Assembly (NCBI GenBank): GCA_903885165.1
Contig: CAISHO010000122.1
Coordinates: 1-42,924 of the forward strand
Origin: an uncultured Nitrosomonadales bacterium
GTDB lineage: Bacteria > Pseudomonadota > Gammaproteobacteria > Burkholderiales > Gallionellaceae
Direction: 5' to 3'
DNA length: 42,924 bases
A model generated the notes under the pieces. That model was not told where the DNA came from and searched no databases. It saw only the letters and a program-made list of their open reading frames with translations. The position numbers and the translations under genes were made by a program. Positions 5,849 to 25,153 of the stretch are shown here, piece by piece (positions within the stretch are counted from its first letter, which is position 1; every line of letters begins with the position of its first letter).

Positions 5849-6733
5849 TTAATGGGCTTTTTTAGCGGCCCGGTGCTCGAAGATCAGGATGCAGGCGACA
5901 ATTAATATCAGCAGTACTGCCGACGCCGTGTAACGGCTTAAAGCCAGCCCGCCAGCATTAATCGGTTTGTCCAGAAAATCGCCAACCACTGCACCCAGCG
6001 GGCGGGTAAGAATGAAGGCCGCCCAGAACAGTATTGTGTGCGATATTTTTGTCCAGTAGTACGCTGCGACAACGAGTAACAGCAGCGTACTAAATACGAT
6101 TGCGCTACCCTCATAGCCTAGACCTGCTGTATCCGCTGTCCAATCACCCAGTGCAGTGCCTAGTGTCTGGGAAAACATGATGGTCGTCCAATAAAATATT
6201 TCAGCCTTGGGAGAGCTGACCGTATCAACCGATATTGAGCCTAATGTCCGGTACCAGAGGGCGAGTGAGGCCATCAACAATATCAACAACAGCGATGAAC
6301 CGCCGGCATAGCCGATACCCAGTGAGCGGTCTGCATAATCTGCCAGGGTGGTGCCGACCGTAGTCGTTGCGATAATGGTCGTCCAGTACATAAACGGGTG
6401 AAAGCCCTTAGCCTTGATCTGGGCCGTCACTGCGATAATAAAAATCGCGGAAAAAATTCCCGTGCCGACCAGATAGCCCAGATGCATCGACATGGAAACA
6501 GCATCGCCTCCCGTTTCACCCAGCGTTGTGGCAAAGATTTTGATGAGCCAGAAGAGAAAAGTCACTTCCGGCACTTTGCTCAACGCATTCTTAACGTGAA
6601 ACTCGCGTAGCGATTCGTTTGCCCTTTCCCCCGCATGCGGGGGAAAGTTGAAAAGAGGGAAACGGGCATGGCGAGTTTCATTATCAGGGGTGGCATTCTT
6701 GTCCTGCCCGTTAGTCGTATCGTTCATGCTCAT
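5849..6733 (-). CDS. COG4705-type integral membrane protein with a repeat-derived N-terminus (294 aa)
   Basis: Paralogue of the gene just upstream. From KVPEVTF (about residue 53) onward it follows the family pattern: about eight membrane helices built from four two-helix units, each marked by a small-residue motif ending in Gly-x3-Asp or similar (TTLGETGGD, TTVGTTLAD, QTLGTALGD, RPLGAVVGD). The function is not established. Residues 7-47 are encoded by a copy of the 123-bp structured repeat (6591-6713) and have no counterpart in the paralogue, which begins its family homology within about 15 residues. The ATG overlaps the upstream stop by 4 bases with GAGG just before it, which supports this start. 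TTG or GTG codons beyond the repeat (near residue 50) are possible alternatives. Confidence 0.85.
   Translation of the reverse strand: MSMNDTTNGQDKNATPDNETRHARFPLFNFPPHAGERANESLREFHVKNALSKVPEVTFLFWLIKIFATTLGETGGDAVSMSMHLGYLVGTGIFSAIFIIAVTAQIKAKGFHPFMYWTTIIATTTVGTTLADYADRSLGIGYAGGSSLLLILLMASLALWYRTLGSISVDTVSSPKAEIFYWTTIMFSQTLGTALGDWTADTAGLGYEGSAIVFSTLLLLVVAAYYWTKISHTILFWAAFILTRPLGAVVGDFLDKPINAGGLALSRYTASAVLLILIVACILIFEHRAAKKAH
6591..6713 (+). repeat. Structured 121-123 bp repeat, copy 1 (inside a coding region)
   Basis: First of three related copies. Outer arms TGAAACTCGC (6597-6606) and GCGAGTTTCA (6671-6680) are perfect complements. They enclose a 22-bp palindrome (6625-6646) with 10-bp arms TTTCCCCCGC/GCGGGGGAAA. 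A second stem pairs ACGGGCA (6662-6668) with TGCCCGT (6705-6711). The ends read TTAACGTG and CCCGTTA, a short terminal inverted repeat beginning with TA. The element is translated on the minus strand as part of the 294-aa membrane protein. Confidence 0.9.
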
Positions 6734-7500
6734 TCCTCTATTTGCTTACGCGTGACGGTCATATAAATCACCAGACCTACGATGCCGATCAGAAAGATGG
6801 CATTCGTGACGGCAGCCCCTAAACCGATTCCGCCATTCGTATTCGGCTGCATCAGGTAATCGCCTAAAGATGCACCCAGCGGACGAGTCAAAATATAGGC
6901 AATCCAGAACGCCCCGATGGCATTCACCTTGAAGCCGTAATAGCTTAGTGTGACGAACCCTATCATTCCGGCAAACATCACGGCAGAGTTCGCATAGCCC
7001 AACTTCAATCCTTCTGCCGCCAGATCACCGGCCGCTGTCCCCAGCGCAAAGGTGAATAAAATCGCCGCCCAATAGAACAGTTCGCGCTTTGTCGTGAATA
7101 TGGAATGGATAGAGAGCGTCTTTTCGCTGCGGTACCACGTTGCAAAAGTAACAGCGAGCGCCAGACTGAATACGATGGTGGTGGTTTCCAACGCAACACC
7201 GAAATTATCTACGAGATTATCGGTGATTAATGTACCGACGGTGCTGATCAGTACCACCACGACCCAATATAACCACGGCACATAGCTCTTTCTGCGCAGT
7301 TGCATAACCAGGAAAACAGCCAGCAGAACGCTGGTCACGATAGACGTAGCCGTCAAGCCGAACTGCAAATCAAAGTTCAGAAAGTCAGCAGCGGTCTCAC
7401 CGACCGTGGTGCACATGATTTTGATAACCCAGAAGTAGAGTGTGACTTCCGGAACCTTGTTCAGTATTTGTATTGCGCCTTGGCGCGCAGGGGTGTTCAT
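6730..7500 (-). CDS. COG4705-type integral membrane protein (256 aa)
   Basis: This resembles the conserved 'membrane-anchored protein' family COG4705, whose function is unknown. It has about eight hydrophobic helices and an obvious fourfold internal repeat: an aromatic pair followed by a glycine motif ending in Asp, at residues 22-39 (TTVGETAAD), 77-94 (STVGTLITD), 142-159 (FALGTAAGD) and 198-214 (RPLGASLGD). Acidic residues recurring inside helices are typical of ion-coupled carriers, but that is inference. It is the first gene of a minus-strand operon with a paralogue (ATGA overlap), a response regulator and a sensor kinase. A good ribosome-binding site (GGGAGA) precedes the ATG. Confidence 0.85.
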   Translation of the reverse strand: MNTPARQGAIQILNKVPEVTLYFWVIKIMCTTVGETAADFLNFDLQFGLTATSIVTSVLLAVFLVMQLRRKSYVPWLYWVVVVLISTVGTLITDNLVDNFGVALETTTIVFSLALAVTFATWYRSEKTLSIHSIFTTKRELFYWAAILFTFALGTAAGDLAAEGLKLGYANSAVMFAGMIGFVTLSYYGFKVNAIGAFWIAYILTRPLGASLGDYLMQPNTNGGIGLGAAVTNAIFLIGIVGLVIYMTVTRKQIEE

Positions 7501-8086
7501 TTGGATATTCTCCCGAAATTTTTCAGACAGATAGGGTCTGGTTGTGAAAAGCAGGTTTAGCAGCGCTGCTCCGATATTGGCGTATTCGCACAGTGGTCAA
7601 GATAGCAGCCAAGAATTAGCGCAGCCTTAGCAAGGCAGGAGACTAAACGGGATGAAGTTATTTGCCTTTTAATCAATGGTTCACAACCATGGCTAGTGTG
7701 TCATTGTAGGGGGTATTTTGGCCGCGATAGCATGTAATGGCTGCTTATTACACGCCACGAATAACGGGGTTTTCTCGCCGCCTACCGATAGCGGTTAGAT
7801 ATATTCACGACCGGCCGCGTCATCATTGATAATGGGCATCAAGCGCGCCAGATCGGTGTTTTGATTCGTCTGGCCCCCATTTTTTATGCCAGCTCTGTCT
7901 TAACGAGAGCCGTGAGCAGTCCTTTATTCAGCGCTACCCTAACCGCTCAAGATACAATACATTCTTTTGCAAAAACCTTTGGTGTTTTTTTGACTGTTAG
8001 CAAATACGCCATCACGTTGTGCAGGTTAAAATTCGCCCTTATTTCCATCACATTTCTGCCGAGTTTCATGGCTAGATACACGATAC
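7501..8086. other. Gene-poor intergenic region (586 bp)
   Basis: It separates the minus-strand membrane-protein/two-component operon from the plus-strand transporter and should hold both promoters. I see no convincing gene. On the minus strand around 7799-7900 short open stretches end in natural-looking C-termini but are broken by stops within about 35 codons, which could be the remnant of a decayed gene. A small inverted repeat, ACCGATAGCGGT, is at about 7784-7795. Confidence 0.5.
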
Positions 8087-9361
8087 ATGATTAATAACTC
8101 GCCCTCCATCTTACGAATTGCCTTCGCCAGCTTTATTGGTACGGCGATAGAATTTTACGACTTCTATATCTATGGCCTGGCCGTGGCGATGGTGATCGGC
8201 CCGTTGTTCTTTCCAGCCAGCGACCCTGCGACACAGTCTCTCAATGCGTTTCTGACTTTCGGTATCGCTTTTATTGCCCGACCTATCGGCGCCGTAGTCT
8301 TCGGGCATTTCGGTGATCGTGTAGGTAGAAAGTCAACCCTGGTAATTTCTTTGCTGGTGATGGGGACTTCCACTACGCTGATCGGTTTTCTGCCGGGTTA
8401 TGCGTTAATCGGTTGGGGCGCACCTGTGCTGCTCTGCCTGTTGCGGTTCGGCCAGGGGATCGGTTTAGGAGGCGAGTGGGGTGGGGCCGCGTTGCTGGCT
8501 GCCGAATATGCGCCCAAAGGCCGGCGCGGTTGGTTTGGTATGTTCCCGCAACTGGGGCCACCGGTAGGTTTTTTATTGGCCGTTGGAAGTTTCTTGTTAC
8601 TCTCCACGGTGTTAGATGATGTGCAGTTTCGAGCTTGGGGTTGGCGCATCCCCTTTTTGGCGAGCGCCGTATTGGTCGTCATTGGTCTATACGTCCGGTT
8701 AAAACTCGCCGAAACGCCCGTTTTTGCCAAGTCGCTGGCATCGCATCGTCCTGTAAGATTGCCGGTGGCTGAGTTATTTCGATCTCATGCTCAGGCATTG
8801 CTGCTCGGTGCGCTGGTGATGGTGGTGTGTTACGCACTATTTTATATTTCTACTGTATTTTCATTGAGTTATGGAACAACGAAGCTCGGTATTCCACGTC
8901 CGCAGTTTTTGGGGATGCTTTGCGTAGCGGTGATTTTTATGGCAGCGGCGACGCCGCTTTCCGCTTTGGCAGGGGATCGTTACGGTCGTCGTCCGGTGTT
9001 GATCGTGGCAGGCATTGCCGCATTCATGTCCGGTTTTTTGCTCAGCCCCATGCTCTCTAGTGGTTCTACGGTGCAAATTACCGCCTTCTTGTGCCTGGAA
9101 TTGTTTCTGATGGGGGCGACTTTTGCACCGATGGGGGCGTTGTTGCCTGAATTGTTTCCAACTGCTGTGCGTTATACCGGGGCGGGGGCGTCCTATAATC
9201 TGGGCGGAATCTTAGGCGCTTCGCTCGCGCCCTACATCGCGCAACAATTGGTGCTTCATGGTGGATTATCCTGGGTGGGCGGCTATATTTCGGTTGCTGC
9301 TGCCATCAGCGTACTGGCCGCGTTCGCCATCAAAGAAACGCGCGACAAGGAACTGACATGA
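8087..9361 (+). CDS. MFS transporter, metabolite:H+ symporter (MHS/ShiA/ProP-like) family (424 aa)
   Basis: Twelve-helix major facilitator. The start of helix 1 ([15 protein letters not shown]) and the loop 2-3 motif [10 protein letters not shown] are diagnostic of the metabolite:H+ symporter group (ShiA, KgtP, ProP relatives). The [14 protein letters not shown] stretch in helix 4 and the GDRYGRRP repeat in loop 8-9 also fit. It would import a small organic solute with protons through the inner membrane; the substrate cannot be told from sequence. The ATG at 8087 gives the usual short N-terminus but has a poor ribosome-binding site. Its stop overlaps the miaA start by 4 bases (ATGA), indicating co-transcription and coupling. 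Confidence 0.92.
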
Positions 9362-10413
9362 AACCGCAAGCAACCGTGAACCATCGCTCAAAACAACGAG
9401 CGCAAAGCGCGAATATGTTTTTAGGCGAAGACCCTTGTGGTCTCAATCCTCAATCCTCACATCTGCCGCACGCTATCTTTCTGATGGGCCCGACCGCCAG
9501 CGGCAAGACGGGGGTTGCGGTGGAACTGATGCAGACATTACCGGTAGAAATTATCAGTGTGGATTCGGCGCTGGTCTATCGCGACATGAATGTCGGGACG
9601 GCTAAACCCGATGCGGCGATGCTGGCACAAGCGCCGCACCATCTCATCGATATCATCGATCCAACGGAGGCCTATTCTGCGGCGGCATTCCGCACTGATG
9701 CCTTGCGGTTAATGGGGGAGATCACCGCGCGCGGCAATATCCCGTTGCTGGTGGGTGGCACGATGCTGTATTTCAAGGCCTTGCGTGAAGGACTGAGTCA
9801 GTTGCCGGTGGCCGATCCCGTGGTGCGCGCCGAGCTGGATGTGGTCATCGCCGAACACGGCATTACCTACCTGCACCAGCAACTGGCTATGGTGGACGCA
9901 GAAACAGCGGCGCGTTTGTCTCCTAACGACACTCAGCGTATACAACGCGCAATGGAGATATATCAACTCACAGGTCAGAGTATGTCCGAACTGTTCAAGC
10001 TTCAGACAGAAAATGCGGTGCTACCCTACCAGATAACTTCGATTGCGCTGACGCCTTCTGATCGCAGTGTGCTGCATCAGCGCATCGCGATGCGTTTTGA
10101 ACAAATGCTGGTCGATGGTTTACTCGATGAGTTAAGCGATTTACGCAATAAATACGATTTAAATCCTGAGCTACCTTCCATGCGCTGCGTGGGTTACCGG
10201 CAGGCATGGCAATATCAGGAGGGGAAAATTACCATGCCTGAGTTTGTCGAGACGGGCATCATTGCAACCCGTCAACTTGCCAAGCGCCAACTGACCTGGC
10301 TGCGCTCCATGCCTGAAAACATTGAAATTAACTGCTTGTCACCGGACTTGCTCCCGCAGGTACGGAGTGTGTTGGCTCAAGACGGGATTCGAGCAGTGGA
10401 ACACGGCGATTGA
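9358..10413 (+). CDS. miaA: tRNA dimethylallyltransferase MiaA with an atypical N-terminal extension
   Basis: MiaA transfers a dimethylallyl group to A37 of tRNAs that read UNN codons. The P-loop GPTASGKT, the substrate-binding [16 protein letters not shown], the [10 protein letters not shown] segment and the QRAMEIY region identify it. Normally only a few residues precede the P-loop strand. Here about 40 precede it, including LNPQSSH encoded by two CAATCCT heptamers (9444-9457). The ATG at 9358 has a good ribosome-binding site (AAGGA) and overlaps the upstream stop. An internal ATG at 9415 has none, and the next ATG (9484) would cut the first beta strand. The extension is therefore probably translated. 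Confidence 0.95.
9444..9457 (+). repeat. Two CAATCCT heptamers inside miaA
   Basis: Two direct copies of the heptamer found in mutL, in the same reading frame, encoding part of LNPQSSH just before the MiaA P-loop strand. Confidence 0.8.
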
Positions 10414-10445
10414 GGCGCGAGTCAGATACGTTGCAGAGATTTCCT

Positions 10446-10480
10446 CAATCCTTATTCCTTGATACTTGACTCTTGATTCT
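10446..10480 (+). repeat. Degenerate heptamer array upstream of cheR
   Basis: Five consecutive 7-bp units read CAATCCT, TATTCCT, TGATACT, TGACTCT and TGATTCT. The strict 7-bp period and the xxxxxCT core match the mutL and miaA heptamers. The array fills most of the miaA-cheR gap and ends 13 bases before the likely cheR start codon, so it may influence cheR expression. Confidence 0.65.
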
Positions 10481-10493
10481 GAAAGATTTTTAT

Positions 10494-11360
10494 ATGGCTG
10501 AAATGAAAGCACCGGCAATACGCGAATTCCACTTCACCGCGCAGGATTTTCAGCGTGTGCGCAAGATGATCTATGATCATGCCGGTATTTCTCTCAATGA
10601 TAGTAAGCAGGAATTAGTTTACAGTCGCTTGTCGCGTCGTCTTCGCGCGACGGGGGTCGGCAGTTTTAGTGAGTATTTGAAACTGCTGGAACAAAATGAT
10701 GAGCAGGAGTGGGAAGCATTTGCCAATTCGCTGACCACGAATCTGACGTCTTTTTTTCGTGAACATCATCACTTTCCGCTGCTGGCTGATCAAATTAAAA
10801 GAATTGGCCATGCTCGCCCTATCGTGTTGTGGTGTTCAGCCTGTTCGACCGGCGAAGAGGCTTATTCCATGGCGATGACGGCGATGGATGCGTTCAATAG
10901 TTTTACGCCGCCGGTGAAGATAATTGCTACCGATCTGGATACGAACGTGCTTGATACAGCCAGGCGCGGGGTATATTCCATGGATCGCGTTGAGAAGCTG
11001 GATGAGGCGTTGATTAATCGCTTTTTTTTAAAGAGTACGGGCGCGCAAGCCGGTTTTGTCAAAGTCAGGCCTGAATTGCAAAATATGATTACCTTTCGTA
11101 AGCTCAATCTGCAGGATTCAACTTGGCTGATACGTGACAAGGTGGATGCTATATTTTGTCGTAACGTTATGATTTATTTTGATAAAGATACGCAATTGGC
11201 GATATTAAAGAAAATGGCTCCAGTGTTGCGCAGCGATGGTTTATTGTATGCGGGGCACTCGGAAAGCTTTTACCATGCCGATGCCTACTTTAAATTGCGC
11301 AGCAAGACGGTGTATGAGCTCTCGGCGAAAATGAAAGCGACTCAGGCGGCAGGATCCTAA
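10494..11360 (+). CDS. cheR: CheR-type chemoreceptor glutamate methyltransferase (288 aa)
   Basis: S-adenosylmethionine-dependent methyltransferase that methylates glutamates of chemoreceptors. The N-terminal CheR helical domain (about residues 10-75; IYDHAGISL, SRLSRRLR) is followed by the catalytic domain with WCSACSTGEEAYS (SAM-binding motif I), ATDLDTNVLDTARRGVY and the FCRNVMIYFD signature. I chose the ATG at 10494. An upstream TTG at 10473 keeps the frame but lies inside the heptamer array. No other chemotaxis genes are in the window, so it is an orphan here, 80 bases after miaA. It could serve a distant chemotaxis cluster or a CheR-linked regulatory pathway. Confidence 0.92.
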   Translation: MAEMKAPAIREFHFTAQDFQRVRKMIYDHAGISLNDSKQELVYSRLSRRLRATGVGSFSEYLKLLEQNDEQEWEAFANSLTTNLTSFFREHHHFPLLADQIKRIGHARPIVLWCSACSTGEEAYSMAMTAMDAFNSFTPPVKIIATDLDTNVLDTARRGVYSMDRVEKLDEALINRFFLKSTGAQAGFVKVRPELQNMITFRKLNLQDSTWLIRDKVDAIFCRNVMIYFDKDTQLAILKKMAPVLRSDGLLYAGHSESFYHADAYFKLRSKTVYELSAKMKATQAAGS

Positions 11361-11374
11361 CGAAAACTTTTTAC

Positions 11375-11396
11375 CCGGTAAATATTTTGTTACCGG
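11375..11396 (+). other. Hairpin downstream of cheR
   Basis: Perfect 7-bp arms CCGGTAA and TTACCGG are separated by 8 bases, 14 bases after the cheR stop. No T-run follows, so it is not a standard intrinsic terminator; it may protect the mRNA 3' end or assist termination. Confidence 0.35.
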
Positions 11397-11575
11397 CTTG
11401 AGGATGATTCGATGATTTTTAAGTCACTGCTCATTAAACAAAATAAATTTTGTGTAGCGTGTGAATAAGAGGTAATTTAATCCGCTGTTCCGCAAAACGA
11501 TAGTAAGCGGAGGGCGGTATGTTGGTATTCTATGTAAATCTGACGCCAGCCTCACGGGTTTTATGGGGAAATTAA

Positions 11576-13024
11576 ATGTTAAAAACATCTGAAGCATCGC
11601 TGGATCCGGAAAATTGGCAGGATTTCCGGCAACAAGGTCATCGCATGCTAGATGATATGCTTGATTATATTGAGAATTTACGCGAGCGTCCGGTTTGGCA
11701 ACCTATACCGCCAGCAGCGCGGGCTGTTTTTGCTGCGCCTCTACCTAAGCAGTCCGGGGATTTGCGTGAGGCGCATCAGACTTTCATGCAGGATGTACTA
11801 CCTTATGCGATCGGTAATTCACATCCCGGATTTATGGGTTGGGTACATGGCGGTGGCAATCCGGTCGGCATGCTTGCTGAAATGCTCTCAGCCGGACTGA
11901 ATGCGAATCTGGGCGGGCGTGAGCAGATCCCTGTCGAAGTCGAACGTCAGTTGTTGCGCTGGGTCCGCGAATTGTTCGATTTTCCCGAGACTGCGACGGG
12001 TTTATTTGTCACGGGAACTTCTATGGCCAATCTGATCAGCGTGCTGGTCGCGCGCACTGCCGCGCAAGGTTGTGAAGTGCGCGAACAAGGTTTGCCAGAT
12101 GGCCATCGTTTGACCGCATATACGTCGGTGAGCGCGCATGTCAGCGTGGCGCAGGCCTTGGATATGGCCGGTATAGGCACGAATGCGCTGCGTAAGATTA
12201 GTTTGAATGTTCAGTTTCAAATGGATGTGGCGGATCTAGAGCGAAAAATTGCCGAGGATAAGGTGGCGGGGATGACGCCGTTCATGATCGCGGCGACAGC
12301 CGGAACGGTAGACGTGGGCGCGATTGATCCCTTACAGGCCATCGCGGACATCGCAAAGCGAGAGGGCATCTGGTTTCATGTCGACGGGGCTTTCGGTGCA
12401 TTAGGGATGTTGGCCGGTGATATTGCGCCACGCCTGTCGGGTATTGAACGCGCCGATTCCATCGCTTTTGACTTCCATAAATGGGGGCAGGTGCCCTATG
12501 ACGCCGGATTCGTGCTGGTGCGTGATGGAGAGTTGCATCACAATACTTTCGCCTCGCCGGTGGCCTATCTAAAACGCGAAACGCGCGGCATGGCGGCGGG
12601 CTCCCCCTGGCCCTGTGATTTTGGTCCTGATTTATCGAGGAGTTTCAGGGCGTTGAAGACTTGGTTTACCTTGCAGGTGTACGGATCCGAAAAGTTGGGC
12701 TCGGTGATTTCCAATACTTGTGCGCTGGCGCAGTATTTGCGGCAACGCGTGGAGGATAGTCACGAGTTGGAATTGTTAGCTCCTGTGGCCTTGAATATCG
12801 TGTGTTTCCGTTATCGCAGCGAAGAGCCTGATCGTGTCAATGCGGACATCGTGATCGCGCTGCAGGAGTCGGGCATCGTAGCCCCCTCGAGTACCACGAT
12901 CAACGGGCACTTTGCGATACGCGCCGCCATCGTCAATCACCGCACAGAAATCCGTGATATTGATGCGCTGATCGAGGCAACGTTGTTGTTCGGTGATAAA
13001 ATAACCAATAAAATCAATATGTAA
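11576..13024 (+). CDS. Pyridoxal-phosphate-dependent group II amino-acid decarboxylase (482 aa)
   Basis: It belongs to the aromatic-L-amino-acid/glutamate decarboxylase family. HPGFMGWVHGGG and LGGREQIPVEVERQ are in the substrate region. HVDGAFGA supplies the PLP-binding aspartate, and FDFHKWGQVPYDAGF contains the Schiff-base lysine, Lys302. Length and order are typical of the full-size enzyme. It would decarboxylate an amino acid (aromatic or acidic) to the amine in the cytoplasm. The substrate is uncertain; the family includes DOPA, tyrosine, histidine and 2,4-diaminobutyrate decarboxylases. It stands alone, preceded by about 215 bp with a GGGGA ribosome-binding site, and converges on the adenosine deaminase gene. 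Confidence 0.9.
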   Translation: MLKTSEASLDPENWQDFRQQGHRMLDDMLDYIENLRERPVWQPIPPAARAVFAAPLPKQSGDLREAHQTFMQDVLPYAIGNSHPGFMGWVHGGGNPVGMLAEMLSAGLNANLGGREQIPVEVERQLLRWVRELFDFPETATGLFVTGTSMANLISVLVARTAAQGCEVREQGLPDGHRLTAYTSVSAHVSVAQALDMAGIGTNALRKISLNVQFQMDVADLERKIAEDKVAGMTPFMIAATAGTVDVGAIDPLQAIADIAKREGIWFHVDGAFGALGMLAGDIAPRLSGIERADSIAFDFHKWGQVPYDAGFVLVRDGELHHNTFASPVAYLKRETRGMAAGSPWPCDFGPDLSRSFRALKTWFTLQVYGSEKLGSVISNTCALAQYLRQRVEDSHELELLAPVALNIVCFRYRSEEPDRVNADIVIALQESGIVAPSSTTINGHFAIRAAIVNHRTEIRDIDALIEATLLFGDKITNKINM

Positions 13025-13092
13025 TGAAGTGTAGCGTTGATTTCCTCGTGTATTTTTGGGTGAGAGTCAATTAGTCGAATAGCTGCTATTCG

Positions 13093-14640: not shown

Positions 14641-14744
14641 GGCAACTCCCGGAGATTTTATGTGGGAATTATAGTGCTAAGCGTGAAGGAAGGTGCGTGA
14701 TGTGTGCTCCGTCCGCGATTTTCCCACGGTGATCGTGTTGATAC

Positions 14745-14793
14745 AAAAAACTCCGCAGCAATACCTGGCTTAGGCGAGGCATCAGTGCGGAGT
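14745..14793 (-). terminator. Intrinsic terminator after sqr
   Basis: On the minus strand, 8-bp arms ACTCCGCA and TGCGGAGT enclose a loop with a small inner CCT/AGG stem, followed directly by six T residues. It lies 19 bases beyond the sqr stop and ends the minus-strand sqr unit. Confidence 0.8.
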
Positions 14794-16165: not shown

Positions 16166-16840
16166 TTAAGAGCGAGGCGAGTTATCTTCGTTTTGAGGGG
16201 CATTTTGCTCGACGAATAACACCGCAGCCTTGACTCTGGAAGATAAATTCAGTTTGTTTAAAATATGACGCACATGCTGTTTAACGGTATCGTAACTGAT
16301 CTTCAACGTCAGTGCGATCGCCTTATTGCTCTCACCGCGCGATAAGAGTTGTAGTATTTCCCGTTCGCGATCGGTGAGCGATTTGATGGCGTTCTTGGGA
16401 TCATTGATATTTTGATCGCCGCGCAACATATTGATCATTTTCATGGTCATGGTAGGGGCTACCACCAATTCGCCGGCTGCGATACGGCGGATGGCGTCCA
16501 CCACTTCATCGGGTGCCATATCCTTGAGCAAGTAGCCGCGTGCGCCGGCACGTATCGCGTTGCCCATATCCACTTCCGAGTCGCTCATGGTGAGTATCAC
16601 CACAGGGGTGACAAACCCTTCCTTGCGGATCTGTTCCAGCATAATCAGCCCGTCCATCGGCTTCATACGTAAATCCATGACCAGCAAGTCGGGTAACTCC
16701 AGCAGCAGAACACGTAATTCTTCAATACAGCCTGTGGCGCCCAATACAGTGAATCCATAGCCATGTGAGAGCAGTTCGCTTAATCCTCGGCGACACAGAT
16801 TCTGATCGTCGACCAGTACTACCCTCAGGTTTTTAGTCAT
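16166..16840 (-). CDS. NarL/FixJ-type response regulator (224 aa)
   Basis: Receiver domain with D11-D12 and phospho-acceptor Asp56 in LLVMDLRMKP, then a LuxR-type helix-turn-helix at about residues 150-210 (LTDREREILQLLSRG, NKAIALTLKISYDTVKQHV). It forms a pair with the kinase encoded upstream (8-base overlap) and precedes sqr by 82 bases in the same direction. By context it probably controls sqr and perhaps the divergent qmo genes. In the region upstream of the pair, two TACTTAA direct repeats (18083 and 18150) resemble NarL heptamers. Confidence 0.93.
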   Translation of the reverse strand: MTKNLRVVLVDDQNLCRRGLSELLSHGYGFTVLGATGCIEELRVLLLELPDLLVMDLRMKPMDGLIMLEQIRKEGFVTPVVILTMSDSEVDMGNAIRAGARGYLLKDMAPDEVVDAIRRIAAGELVVAPTMTMKMINMLRGDQNINDPKNAIKSLTDREREILQLLSRGESNKAIALTLKISYDTVKQHVRHILNKLNLSSRVKAAVLFVEQNAPQNEDNSPRS

Positions 16841-18059: not shown

Positions 18060-18306
18060 GAATTCATCATGTTAGGAGTGGTACTTAAATTAATCCTCGG
18101 GTTCATTTAACGAGTAGAAGTAAATGATTTAAATAGTGTACTACGATGATACTTAATTAAAGCACAGACCATGGTCGCACGAAAATATCTTTCGGATTAT
18201 TTTCATCCCCCCCGATGTGGTTATAGACATGAATATCCCTGATTCGGCCTAATGCACACTGAATTCGGTGAGCTACCTAATGGATGTTGTCTGACACGAA
18301 AGCATT
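18060..18306. promoter_or_regulatory. Divergent control region between the NarX-like kinase and the phosphoesterase/qmo unit
   Basis: AT-rich 247-bp gap between divergently transcribed units. It holds two direct repeats, TACTTAAATTAAT at 18083-18095 and TACTTAATTAA at 18150-18160. Their TACTTA core fits the NarL heptamer TACYYMT except in the last base. No clear -35/-10 pair was assigned. Confidence 0.35.
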
Positions 18307-18834
18307 ATGAAAATTTGTATTGTTTCTGATAGTCATGATCGTGCTGAGCCCTTGGCGGCGGCCATAGGAAAAGCACATTTAGCTGGCGCAGAGGCGGTGA
18401 TTCATTGCGGCGACCTGATCGGCGCCAATACACTGCGTACTTCGCTGAATCTGGGCATTCCTTTGCATGTTTTGCATGGAAATAACATTGGCGATCAAAT
18501 GGCTATGCAGCGTATGATGGCCAAATCCGGCGGGGTGTTGACCTATCACGGTCAGGATGCGGAACTTTCATTGGGCGGACGACGCATCTTCGCGACTCAC
18601 TATCCTCACTACGGACGCGGTATGGCGTGTACTGGCGACTACGATCTGGTCTGCTGCGGCCACAGTCATGTCGCTGAAATCATCTGGCAAGACAATATCA
18701 AGGGAGGCAAGACGCCGCTGGTCAATCCGGGCTCGGTTTCCGGCATTGGTGCGCCTGGCATAAAGGAAGCATTTACCTGGATACTGGGTGATCTTGAGAA
18801 CATGATTTTTGAAATTCATACGCAGGAGAACTGA
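18307..18834 (+). CDS. YfcE/MJ0936-type metallophosphoesterase (175 aa)
   Basis: Calcineurin-like phosphodiesterase of the small, single-domain class. The metal-binding motifs appear in order: DSHD near the start, CGDLIG, GNNIGD, THYPHYG and CGHSHVAE. Such enzymes hydrolyse phosphodiesters with two metal ions; the cellular substrate is unknown. It is the first gene of the plus-strand unit: qmoA begins 39 bases after its stop, so co-transcription is likely, though a functional link is not obvious. The ATG at 18307 gives the standard family N-terminus; the ribosome-binding site is weak. Confidence 0.88.
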   Translation: MKICIVSDSHDRAEPLAAAIGKAHLAGAEAVIHCGDLIGANTLRTSLNLGIPLHVLHGNNIGDQMAMQRMMAKSGGVLTYHGQDAELSLGGRRIFATHYPHYGRGMACTGDYDLVCCGHSHVAEIIWQDNIKGGKTPLVNPGSVSGIGAPGIKEAFTWILGDLENMIFEIHTQEN

Positions 18835-18873
18835 TATGAGGTTTGTTGATTATAATTTTCAACGGAGGTTCGA

Positions 18874-20154
18874 GTGACAGATTCAATTGCAACCAGCCAG
18901 ACCATACTGGTCGTTGGCGGCGGTATCAGCGGCATGACGGCGGCGCTTGAGGCAGCAGAGTGCGGCAAACAGGTGATGCTCATCGAGCGCAATGCCACCT
19001 TAGGCGGGCGCACCTCGCTGCTCTATCGCTATTTTCCTAAAATGTGTCACCCAACCTGCGGACTGGAAATCAATCTGCGCCGTTTGAAGGGCAATCGCAA
19101 CGTGCGCGTGATGACCATGACTCAGGTTGTCTCCGTCATCGGGTCGCGCGGCGATTACACGGTAACCTTGAAAGTCGCACCTCGCTATGTCAATGACCAC
19201 TGCACCGGTTGCGGCGACTGCGCCAAGGCGGTTGAAGCCGAGATCGACAATCCTTACGAATACGGTCTTGCTAAGACAAAAGCGGCCTACTTACCTCATG
19301 CGATGGCTTATCCGCAGCGCTATGTAATTGATGCATCGATTATCAATACGCCGGATGGCGAAAAGGCCCTTGCTGCCTGCAAAGTGGGGGCGGTGGATCT
19401 GGCTATGCAGGAAGAGACTATCGTGGTTAAAGTCGGTACTGTCGTTTGGGCGACCGGCTGGAAGCCCTACGATGCGGCGAAAATACAGCCCTATGGTTAC
19501 GACCGTTACGCCAATGTCATCACCAGTTTGGAATTTGAACGACTGGCCGATCCTAAGGGACCGACCGGCGGTAAACTCCTCAGACCATCCGATGGGCGTG
19601 AGGCAAAAAATATCGCGTTTATCCAGTGTGCCGGTTCTCGAGACGAGAATCATCTGCGTCACTGTTCGCGTATCTGCTGCATGGCCTCCCTCAAACAGAC
19701 GCAATATGTGCGGGAAGCTTATGGCGATGCGGGTAAATCGACGGTGTATTACATCGATCTGCGTACCATAGACCGACTGGAAGATTTTTACGTTAAAGTT
19801 CAAAAGGATACAACGGTTAGTTTCGTCAAATCTAAGGTTGCGAAGATCGTCGAAGACAAGGATGCCAATCCGGTGTTGCACGGCGTAGACACGGAAGGGT
19901 ATCACCGTTATGCGACAGCGCACGATCTGGTGGTGTTAGCCGTCGGCATGGAACCTGAAGCGAATGGCATTAAACTGCCGGACGATATGCTGCTCGACTC
20001 CTCGGGTTTTATTGAAGGCTCAAGGGATGAAGGGATGTTCGGTGCGGGGGCGGCAACCAGTCCGCTGGATGTGAATCGTTCTGTACAAAGTGCCACAGCG
20101 GCGGCACTCAGGGCAATCAAGGTGGTTTACAAAACGGCCACGGTGGAGGGTTAA
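18874..20154 (+). CDS. qmoA: QmoA, HdrA-like FAD/Fe-S subunit (426 aa)
   Basis: Flavoprotein related to heterodisulfide reductase subunit A. The FAD motif GGGISGMTAALEAAE is close to the N-terminus. CHPTCGLEINLRRLK is a QmoA hallmark, CTGCGDC (Cys110, 113, 116) provides Fe-S ligands, and CAGSRDE and CSRICCMASLKQT follow. In sulfate reducers and sulfur oxidisers Qmo exchanges electrons between APS reductase and the quinone pool. The start is GTG with a strong GGAGG site. qmoB starts 3 bases after the stop. No aprBA is visible in the window, so the redox partner must be encoded elsewhere or differ. Confidence 0.92.
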   Translation: MTDSIATSQTILVVGGGISGMTAALEAAECGKQVMLIERNATLGGRTSLLYRYFPKMCHPTCGLEINLRRLKGNRNVRVMTMTQVVSVIGSRGDYTVTLKVAPRYVNDHCTGCGDCAKAVEAEIDNPYEYGLAKTKAAYLPHAMAYPQRYVIDASIINTPDGEKALAACKVGAVDLAMQEETIVVKVGTVVWATGWKPYDAAKIQPYGYDRYANVITSLEFERLADPKGPTGGKLLRPSDGREAKNIAFIQCAGSRDENHLRHCSRICCMASLKQTQYVREAYGDAGKSTVYYIDLRTIDRLEDFYVKVQKDTTVSFVKSKVAKIVEDKDANPVLHGVDTEGYHRYATAHDLVVLAVGMEPEANGIKLPDDMLLDSSGFIEGSRDEGMFGAGAATSPLDVNRSVQSATAAALRAIKVVYKTATVEG

Positions 20155-20157
20155 GAG

Positions 20158-22404
20158 ATGGCTGACAATAAATTTGCTGCATACATCTGTTCCGGTTGCG
20201 GTATCGGTGACAAACTCGATGTCGGTACGCTGGAAAAAATCGCCAAAAAAGAAGGTAAGATTCAGGATGTGAAGACGCATCCCTTTTTGTGTTCGGCTGA
20301 GGGCGTCCAGCTCATCAATGACGATATCGAAAAAGAGGGTGTCACTCATGTCTGTATCGCGGCCTGTTCGCGCCGTGCCAAGACTGAAGCCTTTCACTTT
20401 CCGACCGCAGTTATGTCCCGCGCCAATCTGCGCGAAGGCGTGCTGTGGGTGATCGCCGAGGGCGAGGCGCACGACGAAGTGCGTCAGGAGATGGCTGACG
20501 ACTATGTGCGCATGGCGTGTGCAGAGCTCAAGAAAATGAAACTACCGGACGGCAACCCGAATCACGGTGGCAATAAGCGCATCCTCGTGGTGGGTGGCGG
20601 AATGTCTGGTATGACTTCGGCTCTGGAGGCAGCTGAAGCCGGCTATGAAGTTGTGATCGTGGAGAAACAGGCGCAGTTGGGTGGATGGGGCGCTAAACTC
20701 TGGAAACGTGTGCCGTTCAAGGCGCCGTATGCCGATCCGCAGAATACCGGTGTTGCCGAATTGGTTTCCCTAGTGAGTTCTCATCCTCGCATCACAGTTT
20801 ATCTGGGCTCACATCTGGCAGAAACAGCCGGTGCGCCAGGGCGATTCAATATCAAGATTGCGCAGGAATCAGGCGCTGTCAGTGAAGAGGCCGTCGGTGC
20901 GATCGTACAGGCGACTGGATTTACTTCTTACGACATCGCTAAACTGCCTGAGTTGGGCGGCGGCAAAGCTAACGTGACCGATCAGGCAGGGTTGGAAGCC
21001 TTGGCGCAATCGGCCAACGGCGCTGCGATCAAACGCGCCGACGGCAAAGAAATTAAATCGGTGGTGTTTTTGCAGTGTGCGGGTCAGCGCGATGAGACAG
21101 GTGCCCATCTGCCATATTGTTCTGGACATTGCTGTGCGACCAGCATCAAGCAGGCGATGTACTTTAAGGATAACAATCCCGATATCAACACGGTGGTGAT
21201 GTATCAGGATCTGCGCGTGCCGGGCATGGGTGAGGATTTTTACCGCAGCGCGCAGAACAAGGGCGTGACCTTCACCAAGGGACGTGCGACGGGTGTCGAG
21301 AGCACGGGGGCGACCTGTACGGTGAACTTCCGCGATCTGATCCTTGATGAAGATACTAGCGTAAGCGCTGATCTGGTCGTGCTGGCAACCGGTCAGGTGC
21401 CCAGTGCAGGGGTGGATCTGGAAGCCTGGAATCCGGTGGTGATGGCCGCCGATAATGGTTCTGAGGATGCTAAGCAAAAGAAGGCCGAGATGCAGAAGAT
21501 CTCCATCCTCAACCTGAACTATCGTCAGGGACCGGATATGCCGCAGTTCAAGTATGGCTTCGCAGATTCGCATTTTATCTGCTTCCCTTACGAGACCCGT
21601 CGCACCGGCATCTATGCGGCAGGCCCGGTGCGCCGCCCTATGGATATGTTACAGGCAACGGAAGATGCGACCGGTGCGGCACTCAAAGCCATACAAGCGG
21701 TGGAAAATGCCAGTTTAGGGCGCGCCGCGCATCCCCGTTCGGGTGACTTGTCCTTCCCGACGGCGCGTCTGGAAGGCTGTACCCAATGCAAACGTTGTAC
21801 GGTGGAATGTCCGTTCGGTGCGATCGATGAAGATGAACGGCGTTTTCCGAAGTTCAATGAGGAGCGTTGTCGTCGTTGCGGCACCTGTATGGGCGCGTGT
21901 CCGGTGCGTGTAATTTCCTTCGAGAATTATTCGGTGGATACGGTAGGCGCTCAGATCAAGTCGGTCGATATGCCGGATGAGTTTTCCGAGAAGCCGCGTA
22001 TTTTGATTTTAGCTTGCGAGAACGATGCCTATCCTGCGCTAGATATGGCGGGACTGTCGCGTACTGTGTATTCAGCTTTCGTGCGGATTATCCCGGTGCG
22101 TTGTCTGGGTTCGGTGAATACCATCTGGATCACCGATGCGCTTAATGCCGGTTACGACGGTGTGATGATGATGGGCTGTAAGAAGGGCGATGATTATCAG
22201 TGCCACTTCGTCAAGGGCTCGGAGTTGGCGCACTATCGCATGAGCAAGATAGGCGATACGCTGAGTCAGTTGGGGCTGGAGCCTGAGCGCGTGGTCACGC
22301 ATGAAGTGGCGATTACGGACAATGCGCGGGTCGCACAGTATATCAACGACTATGTGGCTCAGATCAACGAGATCGGTATGTCGCCCATGAAGGGGTTCGT
22401 ATAA
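20158..22404 (+). CDS. qmoB: QmoB, HdrA-like subunit with ferredoxin and MvhD-like domains (748 aa)
   Basis: Domains in order: an N-terminal cysteine region (ICSGCGIGD, FLCSAEG, CIAACSRRAK), an FAD-binding HdrA-like core (VVGGGMSGMTSALEAAEAG at about residue 144), two [4Fe-4S] ferredoxin motifs (Cys541/544/547/551 and Cys571/574/577/581) and a C-terminal MvhD/FlpD-like domain (residues 615-745; LACENDAYPALDMAG, VRCLGS, MGCKKGDDYQCH). MvhD domains pass electrons from partner proteins to HdrA in bifurcating complexes. Size and order fit QmoB. It forms one unit with qmoA. Its TAA stop is the first triplet of repeat copy 2. Confidence 0.93.
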   Translation: MADNKFAAYICSGCGIGDKLDVGTLEKIAKKEGKIQDVKTHPFLCSAEGVQLINDDIEKEGVTHVCIAACSRRAKTEAFHFPTAVMSRANLREGVLWVIAEGEAHDEVRQEMADDYVRMACAELKKMKLPDGNPNHGGNKRILVVGGGMSGMTSALEAAEAGYEVVIVEKQAQLGGWGAKLWKRVPFKAPYADPQNTGVAELVSLVSSHPRITVYLGSHLAETAGAPGRFNIKIAQESGAVSEEAVGAIVQATGFTSYDIAKLPELGGGKANVTDQAGLEALAQSANGAAIKRADGKEIKSVVFLQCAGQRDETGAHLPYCSGHCCATSIKQAMYFKDNNPDINTVVMYQDLRVPGMGEDFYRSAQNKGVTFTKGRATGVESTGATCTVNFRDLILDEDTSVSADLVVLATGQVPSAGVDLEAWNPVVMAADNGSEDAKQKKAEMQKISILNLNYRQGPDMPQFKYGFADSHFICFPYETRRTGIYAAGPVRRPMDMLQATEDATGAALKAIQAVENASLGRAAHPRSGDLSFPTARLEGCTQCKRCTVECPFGAIDEDERRFPKFNEERCRRCGTCMGACPVRVISFENYSVDTVGAQIKSVDMPDEFSEKPRILILACENDAYPALDMAGLSRTVYSAFVRIIPVRCLGSVNTIWITDALNAGYDGVMMMGCKKGDDYQCHFVKGSELAHYRMSKIGDTLSQLGLEPERVVTHEVAITDNARVAQYINDYVAQINEIGMSPMKGFV

Positions 22405-22523
22405 CATGAAATTCGCCTGGCGACGCGTTTGCCCCATCATCCGCTTGCGGGAGAAGGTTGGGATGAGGGAAACGGGCAAGGCGGGTTCTATTCATAGGGG
22501 CGGCATTTTTGCCATGCCCGTTA
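22402..22523 (+). repeat. Structured 121-123 bp repeat, copy 2 (between qmoB and hdrC)
   Basis: Same orientation as copy 1 but more diverged. The outer stem is kept: AATTCGCC (22410-22417) pairs with GGCGGGTT (22480-22487) through two G-U wobbles where copy 1 has Watson-Crick pairs. The central hairpin is reduced to CCGC-TT-GCGG (22441-22450). The right end, TGCCCGTTA, is conserved. It occupies almost the whole qmoB-hdrC gap; the hdrC ribosome-binding site starts right after it. Confidence 0.88.
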
Positions 22524-22533
22524 GGAGCAGGTT

Positions 22534-23160
22534 ATGAGCAATCAAAATCAACAAGCCGTTGCGCGTTACCAAAACAACTTTCTCAAGGAAGTTGAGGATC
22601 GCGTAGAGGACGGAGATTGGGTCAAGATGTGTATGCAGTGCGGCGTCTGCGCGGGTTCCTGCCCGCTGGGCGATGCCTGGGAGCACACGCCGCAAAAGAT
22701 CTTCATGATGATACGAGCGGGTAAGCGCGAGGAAGTACTCAAATCCGACGCGATGTGGATGTGTACCTCGTGTTACAACTGCATCGTGCGTTGTCCGCGC
22801 AAGTTGCCGATCACTCACATCATGCACGGCCTGGCTAACTATGCGCACCGTATGAATTTGGCTCCCCAGAGGCAGCCGACCCGTGTGATCGCCAAAATTT
22901 TCTGGGACAATCTGGTCAAGACCGGGCGCGTCAACGAATTGAAATTCTCGCTGGCAATGTATTTCAAGGACGGTTTCTCTCAGGGTATCAAAAACGCCAT
23001 GGCGATGCAGAGCGCAGGTCTCGGATTGATGAAAGCTAAACGATTGAATCCATTTGAAATTTTTGGCGGTCATAAGTGTAAAGACAGCAGCGGTATCAAG
23101 AAGATGATCGCCAAAGCGCGAGAGATCGAGGACCGTAAAAAAGGTTACACTCCCCTTTAG
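22534..23160 (+). CDS. hdrC: HdrC-like Fe-S subunit (208 aa)
   Basis: Soluble iron-sulfur protein with two [4Fe-4S] motifs, Cys33/36/39/43 and Cys77/80/83/87, in the HdrC arrangement (the first followed by PLGDAW, the second by PRKLPI). It corresponds to the N-terminal part of QmoC from sulfate reducers, but the membrane cytochrome b-like half of QmoC is absent: no hydrophobic helices occur before the stop. It should relay electrons between QmoAB and the HdrB protein encoded 23 bases downstream. An AGGAG site lies 9 bases before the ATG, directly after repeat copy 2. Confidence 0.92.
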   Translation: MSNQNQQAVARYQNNFLKEVEDRVEDGDWVKMCMQCGVCAGSCPLGDAWEHTPQKIFMMIRAGKREEVLKSDAMWMCTSCYNCIVRCPRKLPITHIMHGLANYAHRMNLAPQRQPTRVIAKIFWDNLVKTGRVNELKFSLAMYFKDGFSQGIKNAMAMQSAGLGLMKAKRLNPFEIFGGHKCKDSSGIKKMIAKAREIEDRKKGYTPL

Positions 23161-23183
23161 CCCGTGACGACAGAGAGATAAAC

Positions 23184-24083
23184 ATGGCCAAGAAAAATTA
23201 TGCATTTTACCCCGGTTGTTCGTCCCAGAAGGGCGCTTCCGGTTCAAATTTTGCCACTTCCATCGGCGTGATGTGCGACAAGTTGGAGATACAGCTCAAC
23301 GAGATTCCGGACTGGAATTGCTGTGGCGCTTCCATCGGTTACGGTGAGGGCGGCGAATTGCCGCGTCTGGCACTCAATGCCCGTAATCTGGCGCTGTCCG
23401 CCCAGCATCTTCCGGGACAGGACATGGTTTCCGGTTGTCCGGCCTGCTGGCTGGCTACGCGCGAGACGGCTGAAAGACTGAACGAGCACAGCGATCTGAT
23501 GGCAGAGACCAACGTGGCGCTCAAAGAAGCCGGTTTGACCTTTAAGGGCGGCGTCAAGGCACGTCATATCGTCGAGGTGCTGATCGAAGATGTGGGATTT
23601 GCCGGCATGAAGGCTCCGGTGGTCAAACCGTTGCAAGGCATGAAGATTGCCGGTTATGTCGGCTGCCAGACTAATCGTCCATTCGGCATCGCGGGGGAAT
23701 CGTTCGAAAATCCGCTTTATCTGGACAAAATGATCGAAACAGTCGGGGCGGAAGCGGTCAGCAGTTTTGATCAGAAGGTGACTTGCTGCGGCGGTGCGCT
23801 GGCTTTTTCCGAGCCTGAAAAATCACAGAAGCAAATTCGCGACATCGTTGAGTCCGCTTATGACCACGGTGCCGAGATGATCGTCACGCCCTGTCAGTTG
23901 TGTCAGGCCAACGTGGAAATCTATCAGGCCGAGATTAACAAGAAGCACGGCACCAAACTGGCCATGCCGGTGGTGTACTACTCGCAACTGATGAGTGTGG
24001 CTTACGGCGGAACATTGAAGCAGGCGGGGTTGGATGGGCATCTGATTCAGCCGAACAGGCTGCAGGAGATAGCCGGGAAGTAA
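23184..24083 (+). CDS. hdrB: HdrB-like subunit with two cysteine-rich (CCG) domains (299 aa)
   Basis: Two CCG domains are complete: Cys12, Cys46-Cys47 and Cys85/Cys88, then Cys161, Cys201-Cys202 and Cys237/Cys240. In HdrB these bind non-cubane [4Fe-4S] clusters that cleave disulfides. With HdrC it replaces the membrane half of QmoC, as described for some Gram-positive sulfate reducers with QmoAB-HdrBC. Here it could reduce or oxidise a disulfide, a persulfide carrier or a further electron acceptor, but the partner is unknown. It is the last gene of the tight qmo-hdr unit; a separate promoter precedes the next gene. Confidence 0.92.
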   Translation: MAKKNYAFYPGCSSQKGASGSNFATSIGVMCDKLEIQLNEIPDWNCCGASIGYGEGGELPRLALNARNLALSAQHLPGQDMVSGCPACWLATRETAERLNEHSDLMAETNVALKEAGLTFKGGVKARHIVEVLIEDVGFAGMKAPVVKPLQGMKIAGYVGCQTNRPFGIAGESFENPLYLDKMIETVGAEAVSSFDQKVTCCGGALAFSEPEKSQKQIRDIVESAYDHGAEMIVTPCQLCQANVEIYQAEINKKHGTKLAMPVVYYSQLMSVAYGGTLKQAGLDGHLIQPNRLQEIAGK

Positions 24084-24127
24084 ACGTTACACGCACTCGT
24101 TCCGTTTTTGGGGTTAAGTGGGTGGAT

Positions 24128-24158
24128 TTGTCTCAAAGCGGAATCTGCGCGCTATAAT
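24128..24158 (+). promoter_or_regulatory. Probable sigma-70 promoter of the rhodanese gene
   Basis: A perfect -10 TATAAT (24153-24158) lies 30 bases before the GTG start. TTGTCT at 24128-24133 can serve as -35 with a 19-base spacer, slightly long. It suggests the rhodanese can be expressed independently of hdrB. Confidence 0.5.
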
Positions 24159-24188
24159 CCCCGCACACAATTTTGAAGGAGTGCCCCC

Positions 24189-24575
24189 GTGAAGCACCTG
24201 AGCCCTAAAGAAGCGCACAAGTTTCTTAAAGATACCCCTGAAGCCGTATTTGTCGATGTGCGCTCCGAAATGGAGTATATGTTCGTCGGTCACCCGACCG
24301 GCTCTATCTTGATTCCCTGGGTGGATGGGCCTGACTGGGATATTGATCCTGATTTCGTCTCTCATGTTAAAAAAGCGGCCAGTGTAAATCGCCCTGTCGT
24401 GCTGATCTGTCGTTCCGGTCGTCGTTCTATCGATGCTGGTTTGGCGTTGGAGAAAGCCGGCTTGACCGAGGTGTATAACGTGCTGAACGGTTTTGAAGGT
24501 GATCTGAATGAGCACCATCATCGCAACACCCATAATGGTTGGCGCTTTGACGGTTTGCCTTGGGCACAGACTTGA
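24189..24575 (+). CDS. Single-domain rhodanese-like sulfurtransferase (128 aa)
   Basis: Single rhodanese domain with VDVRSEMEYMFVGHPTGS and the active-site loop CRSGRRS, whose cysteine would form the persulfide. The loop is six residues long, as in sulfur transferases rather than Cdc25-type phosphatases. The C-terminus is His-rich (EHHHRNTHNGW), a feature of a rhodanese subgroup in sulfur oxidisers. It probably moves sulfane sulfur, for instance from SQR products toward thiol carriers. The GTG start is preceded by AAGGAG; its position 105 bases after hdrB and its own promoter suggest linked but separable expression. Confidence 0.92.
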   Translation: MKHLSPKEAHKFLKDTPEAVFVDVRSEMEYMFVGHPTGSILIPWVDGPDWDIDPDFVSHVKKAASVNRPVVLICRSGRRSIDAGLALEKAGLTEVYNVLNGFEGDLNEHHHRNTHNGWRFDGLPWAQT

Positions 24576-24639
24576 TTTATAACTTCTTGAATATTAATTA
24601 TTTTTATAATGTCAGGTGCGCCTGCTTTTGGATTAAGCC

Positions 24640-25035
24640 ATGAATATTGCTGATTTTACTGATTCAGAGCAAAAACTCGTCACCACACAATTGTTACAAC
24701 GATACGGGAAACTGGTGCCGCTGCAATTGGCCGACAGCGAGTTGCAACTGGATCCCGCCTCGACGGAACTGACAGTGTGCCCGACCTTGTACTGGACCGA
24801 GCGCGGCGCACATTTTGTGGTGTGCAAAATTGCAGACGGTCTTTATCGCAGCCAGTTTTTCTACTCTGAAACCGAGCAATACGGGACAGGCAAGGATGAA
24901 TATACCGATCTGAATACTTGTGTCACAACGCTTTTGCAGGTGCAATCCGATCACGAACGGCAGCTGGCGAATATTTCATCCGGTGCAACCCGCGCCAAAA
25001 TCGACGAGGATTACAGCGGGCCGATGGTGATCTAA
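24640..25035 (+). CDS. Unknown protein (131 aa) next to the rhodanese
   Basis: I do not recognise a family. The protein is soluble, acidic and without signal peptide or membrane helix. It contains three cysteines (VCPTLYW, VVCKIADG, LNTCVTTLL) and ends in EDYSGPMVI. A TATAAT-like -10 occurs at 24605-24610. It lies 64 bases downstream of the rhodanese on the same strand, so a role in sulfur metabolism is possible but unproven. Its TAA stop is the first triplet of repeat copy 3; the original C-terminus could have been changed by that insertion. Confidence 0.7.
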   Translation: MNIADFTDSEQKLVTTQLLQRYGKLVPLQLADSELQLDPASTELTVCPTLYWTERGAHFVVCKIADGLYRSQFFYSETEQYGTGKDEYTDLNTCVTTLLQVQSDHERQLANISSGATRAKIDEDYSGPMVI

Positions 25036-25153
25036 CGGGCATGTCAATTGCCACCCCTGACAATGTAACTCGCCATGCCCGTCCCCCTCTTTTCAACTTT
25101 CCCCCGCAAGCGGGGGAAAGGGCAAACGAATCGCTACGCGAGTTTCACGTTAA
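25033..25153 (-). repeat. Structured 121-123 bp repeat, copy 3 (inverted)
   Basis: In reverse orientation to copies 1 and 2. Read on the minus strand it matches copy 1 almost perfectly over the first 90 bp, including the perfect central palindrome TTTCCCCCGC/GCGGGGGAAA at 25098-25119. It fills the gap between the 131-aa gene, whose stop codon it provides, and the convergent DUF934 gene. Translated on the plus strand it yields a peptide nearly identical to the N-terminus of the 294-aa membrane protein. Confidence 0.92.

Follow-up and report, generated by a model that had tools for sequence, protein, structure and literature searches.

A TA-flanked, MITE-like palindromic element that invades protein-coding genes in Gallionellaceae

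A stretch of 42,924 nucleotides from an uncultured Nitrosomonadales bacterium of the family Gallionellaceae (contig CAISHO010000122.1 of assembly GCA_903885165.1, hereafter the window) carries three copies of a short repeat, which is a TA-flanked, protein-invading palindromic element resembling the miniature inverted-repeat transposable elements (MITEs). The repeat is real and mobile. Its copies are dispersed through the genome and the genus, relatives show precisely empty sites, and some copies lie in frame within conserved proteins. An earlier reading made from the letters alone (the sequence-only reading) had located the three copies (Table 1) and had proposed a non-autonomous mobile element that inserts at TA. 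The copies are indeed there, and the proposal is borne out by the further copies and by the empty sites. None of the three outcomes that it had named as refuting came about, for further copies, empty orthologous sites and covariation were all found. That reading had, however, missed the in-frame position of copy 1 inside a protein gene, and it gave the start of copy 2 as TTAACGTG, which in fact reads TATAACATG.

Results

At copy 1 the insertion is clean. Two relatives with an empty DUF347 gene and 79-80% identical DNA (loci L141 and L142, in genomes G015 and G001) read CATTTTTAGTCG, where the filled window reads CATTCTTA[..]TTAGTCG, a net gain of 120 bp; since L141 and L142 are identical over the stretch, they count as one empty site. 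Further empty sites were sought with ten joined-flank queries from G015, six of which matched in G001. One pair of loci (L156/L171) is readable on both sides, with TCCTTAAATAAG in the empty state and TCCTTA[..]TTAAACAAG in the filled one. Two more were read by eye, the automatic alignment having misplaced them. In the first (L151/L170), the left junction of the filled locus reads GTA and the right one TTA, where the empty locus reads GTAG, so that only TA is common to both sides; the second (L161/L172) agrees on the right side (TTATGCTAATCT), with the left TA decayed to TG. The target overlap between empty and filled sites is TA (TTA at copy 1). As a side observation, the DUF347 region of L141 and L142 (G015:C29 and G001:C16) is identical over about 2,165 bases, while these genomes are 70-80% alike at the six other matched sites, and both have an IS630-type gene at a distance of a few kb; the region shared by G015 and G001 is probably a transferred island.

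The ends were read from 131 full-length or nearly full-length copies in fetched DNA; in 63 of them both ends fitted the search pattern, of which TA is itself a required part. T precedes the left TA in 55 of these 63 and G follows the right TA in 56; the target preference is the asymmetric T-TA-G. The element runs from TA-ACGTGAAA on the left to CCCGT-TA on the right and measures about 116-120 bp. The short terminal inverted repeats of the sequence-only reading are present, but they extend for only about 5 bp (ACGTG / ACGGG). Since the TA is followed by A-C-G at either end, a stop codon TA(A/G) that receives the element becomes TAA again, as seen at two copies in the window: at copy 2 the stop codon TAA (22402-22404) consists of the target TA and the first base of the element, and at copy 3 the stop codon TAA (25033-25035) of the open reading frame (ORF) 24640-25035, which has no Pfam match, consists of the target TA and the element's terminal base. 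An integron attC site, which has similar ends (TTAAC..GTTAG), was tried and rejected on its anatomy, the base before the left TT often not being G in the flanks as read by eye.

Copy 2 stands within an hdr-like cluster (18874-24083; the names hdrA and hdrC are taken from Pfam domains). Of 27 other loci tried, 26 had both neighbours, and in all 26 the hdrA-hdrC junction is without the element. The closest relative (L060) has a 13-bp gap there, and in another (L065) just the central palindrome is matched, twice and weakly (E = 0.05 and 0.11). Many relatives hold other short repeats or inserts at this junction, up to 536 bp long.

With copy 1 as the query, the window's genome (2.44 Mb in 151 contigs) gave 35 matches at E<=0.001, from 40 of 42 candidates scored; copy 3 was matched at E = 1.8e-45 and copy 2 at E = 1.4e-22. 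Seven rows were dropped (three were the palindrome on its own opposite strand, one was half of another copy, and three were weak fragments that had not been fetched), leaving 28 places occupied by the element. Across the genus, 32 of 37 genomes carry it, the window's own included. Since only the best matches are listed for each genome, such counts are lower bounds, and since copies were fetched by likeness to the query, divergent subfamilies are under-sampled. From its absence in all 24 genomes of other families within the genus-centred sample, the distribution was first read as restricted to the genus. An order-wide draw overturned this reading: with at most two candidates scored per genome, a patchy 25 of 300 genomes had a match at E<=1e-6, four of them in the same genus, two in another genus of the family and 19 in other families, several of the matches being partial. 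Of eight loci fetched from this search, seven are complete or almost complete and have ends of the same kind, and one (L353) is without part of the right half. No match was found in phage and plasmid records by distant blastn, nor in IMG/VR to one degenerate pattern of the left end. Among the papers listed, the literature search found no description recognisable as this element, and none that joined Gallionella with "miniature inverted-repeat".

The principal new finding concerns insertion into proteins. The DUF347 protein of the window reads MSMNDTT|NGQDKNATPDNETRHARFPLFNFPPHAGERANESLREFHV|KNALSK, and relatives without the copy read MNDTTKNALSKVPEV. In-frame copies add 36-42 residues to DUF347, BioF (in two genomes, at the same site), MutM, ThiO, YchJ, pirin and a SpoU methylase. 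Frames were scanned across those of the 131 copies that lay in loci of at least 1.5 kb, taking ORFs of at least 130 codons that overran the element at each end by more than 60 bases. This gave 33 frames (some copies give two), 21 of which were covered by 20 ORFs sent to Pfam. Eight of the 20 have Pfam matches across the element or on both sides of it: BioF in L307, BioF in L055, MutM, ThiO, SpoU, YchJ, pirin and an aroA-cmk fusion. In the last of these (L329:8553-10724), aroA and cmk are linked through the element as a single open frame of 724 codons; and in L332:9527-10192 the YchJ gene has one copy inside while the same frame runs through a second copy near the N-terminus. Nine further proteins were sent to Pfam. 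An APH-family kinase and a Uma2 protein, both in the window's genome, are split in frame by shorter copies, with two matched stretches each; a SelR/MsrB protein gains a C-terminal tail from one copy; four copies are placed a little upstream of a domain (peptidase U32, radical SAM, MltA and PAPS reductase), where predicted starts are ambiguous; and DUF347 was matched again. The window's genome has four supported in-frame cases among its 28 places (DUF347, SpoU, APH and Uma2).

MutM aligns to residues 1-64 and 65-268 of 1k82, presumably the E. coli enzyme, with 35 query residues between, and BioF aligns to residues 19-176 and 180-397 of 5jay. Outside the insert the two BioF genes differ at synonymous sites by 0.71. 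For the inserts the figure is 0.29, with 0.27 at non-synonymous sites, and on inspection by eye they fall into different subfamilies. One shared ancient insertion was rejected on this comparison, for the divergence of the inserts (29% synonymous) lies below that of the rest of the gene (71%), and two arrivals, or conversion, fit better. By eye, all in-frame cases use the same antisense frame, which reads about NGHGKDATPDNETRHARFPLSNFPPQAGERANESLREFHV and is open in 81 of the 131 copies against 36.8 in shuffles. A second antisense frame is open in 52 copies (35.2 in shuffles) and the third is depleted (9 against 33.9); of the sense frames, two are depleted (6 against 27.6 and 9 against 30.0) and one is neutral (31 against 30.7).

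The element is laid out as a conserved left end of 30 bases followed by two hairpins. The sequence-only reading had described a central palindrome (helix b) and an outer stem (helix a), and had taken the latter to be a kept fold on the grounds that it still pairs in copy 2; it overlooked a second long stem, AACGGGCATGGC with GCCATGCCCGTT (helix c), which overlaps and crosses the outer stem. In the sequence of copy 2 the pairing of 22410-22417 with 22480-22487 does exist, with its two G-U pairs. Covariation was assessed on an alignment of 50 copies against 500 shuffles, with five measures per helix. Helix c is 92.8% paired and has eight doubly changed pairs against 2.1 in shuffles, and on all five measures no shuffle equalled it (0/500). 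Helix b is 90.6% paired, with 56 doubly changed cells against 21.9; no shuffle reaches its paired cells, its doubly changed cells or its covariation score (0/500 each), while its counts of pairs (84/500) and of types (264/500) are not unusual. Helix a, by comparison, is 86.7% paired and has four doubly changed pairs where shuffles have 3.3 (216/500), with a covariation score at 67/500; values as high as those of its paired cells and doubly changed cells occur in 9/500 and 10/500 shuffles. Helix d (4 against 2.0, 25/500) and the small helix e (4 against 2.3, 62/500) are intermediate. RNAalifold selects helices b and c and omits helix a. Covariation thus supports the central and 3' hairpins, and it does not support the outer stem as the kept fold. 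Folds predicted for single copies vary, copies 1 and 2 having helix a and copy 3 helix c, with stability z-scores of -4.4 for copy 1, -3.3 for copy 3 and -1.9 for copy 2. Compensatory change in palindromes can arise from template switching between the arms. Since the copies are related and template switching can match palindrome arms, the result is evidence for kept hairpins and not proof of an RNA function.

Table 1. Features of the window, in window coordinates, and loci that carry the nested hairpins
Feature	Position or loci	Strand	Description
Copy 1	6592..6713	+	TA, 118-bp body 6594-6711, TA; in-frame (antisense) near N-terminus of DUF347 gene
Copy 2	22402..22523	+	TA, 118-bp body 22404-22521, TA; between hdrA-like and hdrC-like genes
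Copy 3	25033..25152	-	TA, 116-bp body 25035-25150, TA; between two converging ORFs
DUF347 membrane-protein gene, 294 aa	5849..6733	-	Holds copy 1 as in-frame 40-residue insertion
Central hairpin of copy 1 (helix b)	6624..6647	.	24-bp self-complementary stretch; same bases match minus strand at 100%
3' hairpin of copy 1 (helix c)	6661..6712	+	6661-6672 pairs with 6701-6712; imperfect in copy 1
Outer stem of the sequence-only reading, copy 1 (helix a)	6596..6681	+	6596-6606 pairs with 6671-6681; crosses and partly overlaps helix c
42-bp hairpin carriers	L219, L223, L234, L235, L240, L242, L249, L250; L024		L024 is in the window's genome
62-bp hairpin carriers	L029, L155, L157, L236, L237, L239, L241, L247; also L071, L277		

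Smaller hairpins are found inside the element. One of about 42 bp (TTTGCGAGTTGATGCCCG..CGGGCATCATCCCTGCGAGAATC) is nested in many copies at the same place, sometimes twice or reversed. Another of about 62 bp (ATAACCAGCGACTTGG..AGTCGAATGGCTAGT) stands in or beside the central hairpin and, by eye, inside other palindromes as well, and in L247 the 42-bp hairpin is itself nested inside the 62-bp one. A third recurrent insert, GGGGGAGAGCGTAGCGAGGGGG, of about 20 bp, is in or beside the central hairpin in L234, L235, L236 and L242. Short forms were seen in L156, L158, L025 and L026. In an 89-bp form the 3' hairpin is collapsed, in L156 to ACGAGC-TT-GCTCGT with a compensating change; L025 has a form of about 38 bp, the left end with CCCGTTAG; and in L026 the right half is shortened.

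Discussion

We consider it probable that the repeat is a non-autonomous, MITE-like element that inserts at TA and invades proteins. Its copies are many and dispersed, and none codes for a transposase; an enzyme encoded elsewhere would move it in trans. As a few empty sites show, insertion is precise at TA, with T-TA-G preferred and TA left on both sides. Given its open antisense frame, a copy that arrives in the right orientation and frame with a length divisible by three adds a polar segment and does not destroy the host protein. The added segment can be read in the sequences, and the extended proteins would presumably be made and work. The copies that survive selection may then be those between genes, in stop codons or at protein sites that tolerate them, as for the Rickettsia palindromic elements (RPEs).

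Several points weigh against this explanation. The genomes of the relatives are mostly drafts. Besides copy 1, only two empty sites are fixed on both sides: L172 is readable on one side only, L173 and L174 are too diverged at the junction, and L175 covers half. Moreover, a recombinase that needs TA in both partners can give a 2-bp overlap without any duplication. Among the 20 ORFs sent to Pfam, five are matched on one side only (CusF-like, ATPase gene 1, BrnT, SbcC and OEP) and seven not at all, and since these make up 12 of the 20, many of the open frames across the element need not be coding. Finally, no transposase or autonomous relative was found, and a long form joining both ends is absent from 355 fetched loci, which amount to 2.54 Mb and not to whole genomes. 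Two candidate pairs for such a long form were tried and rejected. One was at chance level (E = 0.5 and 1.3), and the other, in L345, is two separate copies that flank an outer-membrane-protein-like gene (named by eye).

Mobilisation through single strands by a Y1/HUH enzyme of the IS200/IS605 or RAYT kind, which would recognise the hairpins and cleave at TTA with no true target duplication, strikes us as doubtful. Hairpins stand near both ends and, by our own reading of the consensus, GAAAC precedes both the small left one (GAAAC-TCGCGTAGCGA) and the right one (GAAAC-GGGCATGGC), which may be an anatomical hint of this mechanism; the asymmetric target would be TTA^G. RAYT-type genes (PF01797 at E<=0.001, with IS200-type hits of about 150 residues set aside and kinship ignored) occur in all 16 genus genomes with at least three element matches and in one of the seven with fewer, and the palindromes beside two of them (in G003 and G011) share AACGGGCAT with helix c by eye. 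But some of these hits are weak (G011 lies below Pfam's cut-off, and G016 and G020 are near E = 1e-5 to 1e-4), the hit in G005 lies inside a frame of about 1,100-1,200 residues, and a genome with plenty of one repeat may have plenty of every kind. The flanks were read for 17 RAYT-type ORFs: most of these lie between other palindromes and none between copies of the element, and nhmmer at RAYT loci identified a single clear copy (L198, at a distance of about 1.2 kb) together with weak partial matches. Single-strand elements favour one replication strand; copies here show no strand bias relative to GC skew (37 of 70 positive, p=0.35; 27 of 56, p=0.38). A RAYT partnership was accordingly set aside: co-occurrence across genomes is present, but the RAYT loci give no support. 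Two features of these genes are recorded for their own sake. In G000, G001, G003, G008-G011, G013, G018 and G020, many RAYT-type genes stand between palindromes of differing sequence, one set per gene and many with GTAG (by eye); and in L196 (G005:C63:5332-5619) a Y1/RAYT-type domain is in frame within a frame of about 1,100 residues, the rest of which resembles, by eye, a type I restriction R subunit; an entire transposase gene may have been inserted there in frame.

A classical MITE of the IS630/Tc1-mariner group, whose two ends a DDE transposase cutting at TA would recognise, is in our judgement unlikely. The sequence-only reading had suggested a TA-targeting transposase. In favour of such a MITE are the TA at both ends and the 2-bp overlap at empty sites; the Correia, ERIC and RUP repeats are tabled with TA termini in PMC2229807, and DDE_3 (PF13358) is found in three of the 16 genus genomes with at least three element matches (G013, G015 and G016). 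Confirmation did not follow: DDE_3 is in six of the 23 genus genomes searched, and it is absent from the window's genome and from 13 of those 16 multi-copy genomes. IS630 does not track the copy number of the element, and a partnership was rejected. The terminal inverted repeat is also very short, and an asymmetric T-TA-G would not be the preference expected of a two-fold symmetric transposase. It is very improbable that the repeat instead acts in regulation or as an RNA (as an attenuator or a site of RNase III processing, for example) and was spread by its benefit to adjacent genes: stable folds are predicted for copies 1 and 3, copy 2 is inside the hdr operon and two helices show compensatory changes, but the contexts of the copies are unrelated, either orientation occurs, some copies lie within proteins and others at stop codons, the 26 other hdrA-hdrC junctions do without it, no Rfam family reaches its gathering score in the window, and switching between arms could also give the compensatory changes.

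More tentatively, and with the odds against it, the element may represent an unrecognised class of hairpin mobile DNA, whose mover would recognise two hairpins and the asymmetric T-TA-G site instead of terminal repeats. Such a class would have spread through several betaproteobacterial families, would nest with other small hairpin elements, and would repeatedly supply conserved enzymes with new 40-residue segments, bioF having received one at the same place on two separate occasions.

Among known repeats, the nearest in behaviour are the RPEs, which at about 105-150 bp are described with many copies between genes and in frame in conserved genes (PMC10969869, PMC2229807). Like them, going by these accounts, the element is palindromic, similar in size and numerous, and it adds a peptide to several unrelated conserved proteins; the likeness seen is one of behaviour. 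The RPE is given in PMC2229807 as a long stem-loop with a 12-bp terminal repeat, whereas the element has two asymmetric hairpins. The hosts also differ (Rickettsia against betaproteobacteria), the element has TA at both ends and a T-TA-G target, and in the cases read it uses one frame of one family. A counterpart of the RPE reportedly exists in Wolbachia, to go by the title of a reference. The Correia/NEMIS elements of Neisseria are likewise of similar size, non-autonomous, bounded by TA and found between genes, and a 107-bp form is listed as fused in reading frames (PMC2229807). Their terminal repeat is 24 bp long against about 5 bp here, however. By eye, no sequence likeness to Correia elements was noticed. 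Correia elements have an IS630-type partner, and such a partner is absent from most of the genomes with many copies of our element. ERIC and RU-3, with terminal repeats of 7 and 4 bp, TA termini (for RU-3 in part) and open frames, and with a 127-bp ERIC form fused in frame, share in the tabulation of PMC2229807 the short terminal repeats, TA termini and open frames of the element; they are set apart, by description, in hosts and internal structure. The REP/BIME-RAYT systems also pair hairpin repeats with RAYT-type genes, which the high-copy genomes do possess, but here the RAYT genes lie between palindromes of other sequence.

Frequent in-frame insertion of palindromes into conserved proteins is, in the sources drawn on here, reported mainly from Rickettsia and sporadically for forms of ERIC and Correia (PMC10969869, PMC2229807). 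Environmental Gallionellaceae now show the same behaviour. The genes affected belong to DNA repair (MutM), to biotin (BioF) and thiamine (ThiO), and to RNA modification (SpoU), and relatives that are naturally empty exist. With these, both the tolerance of proteins for a 40-residue insertion and the identity of the enzyme that moves the element are directly testable.

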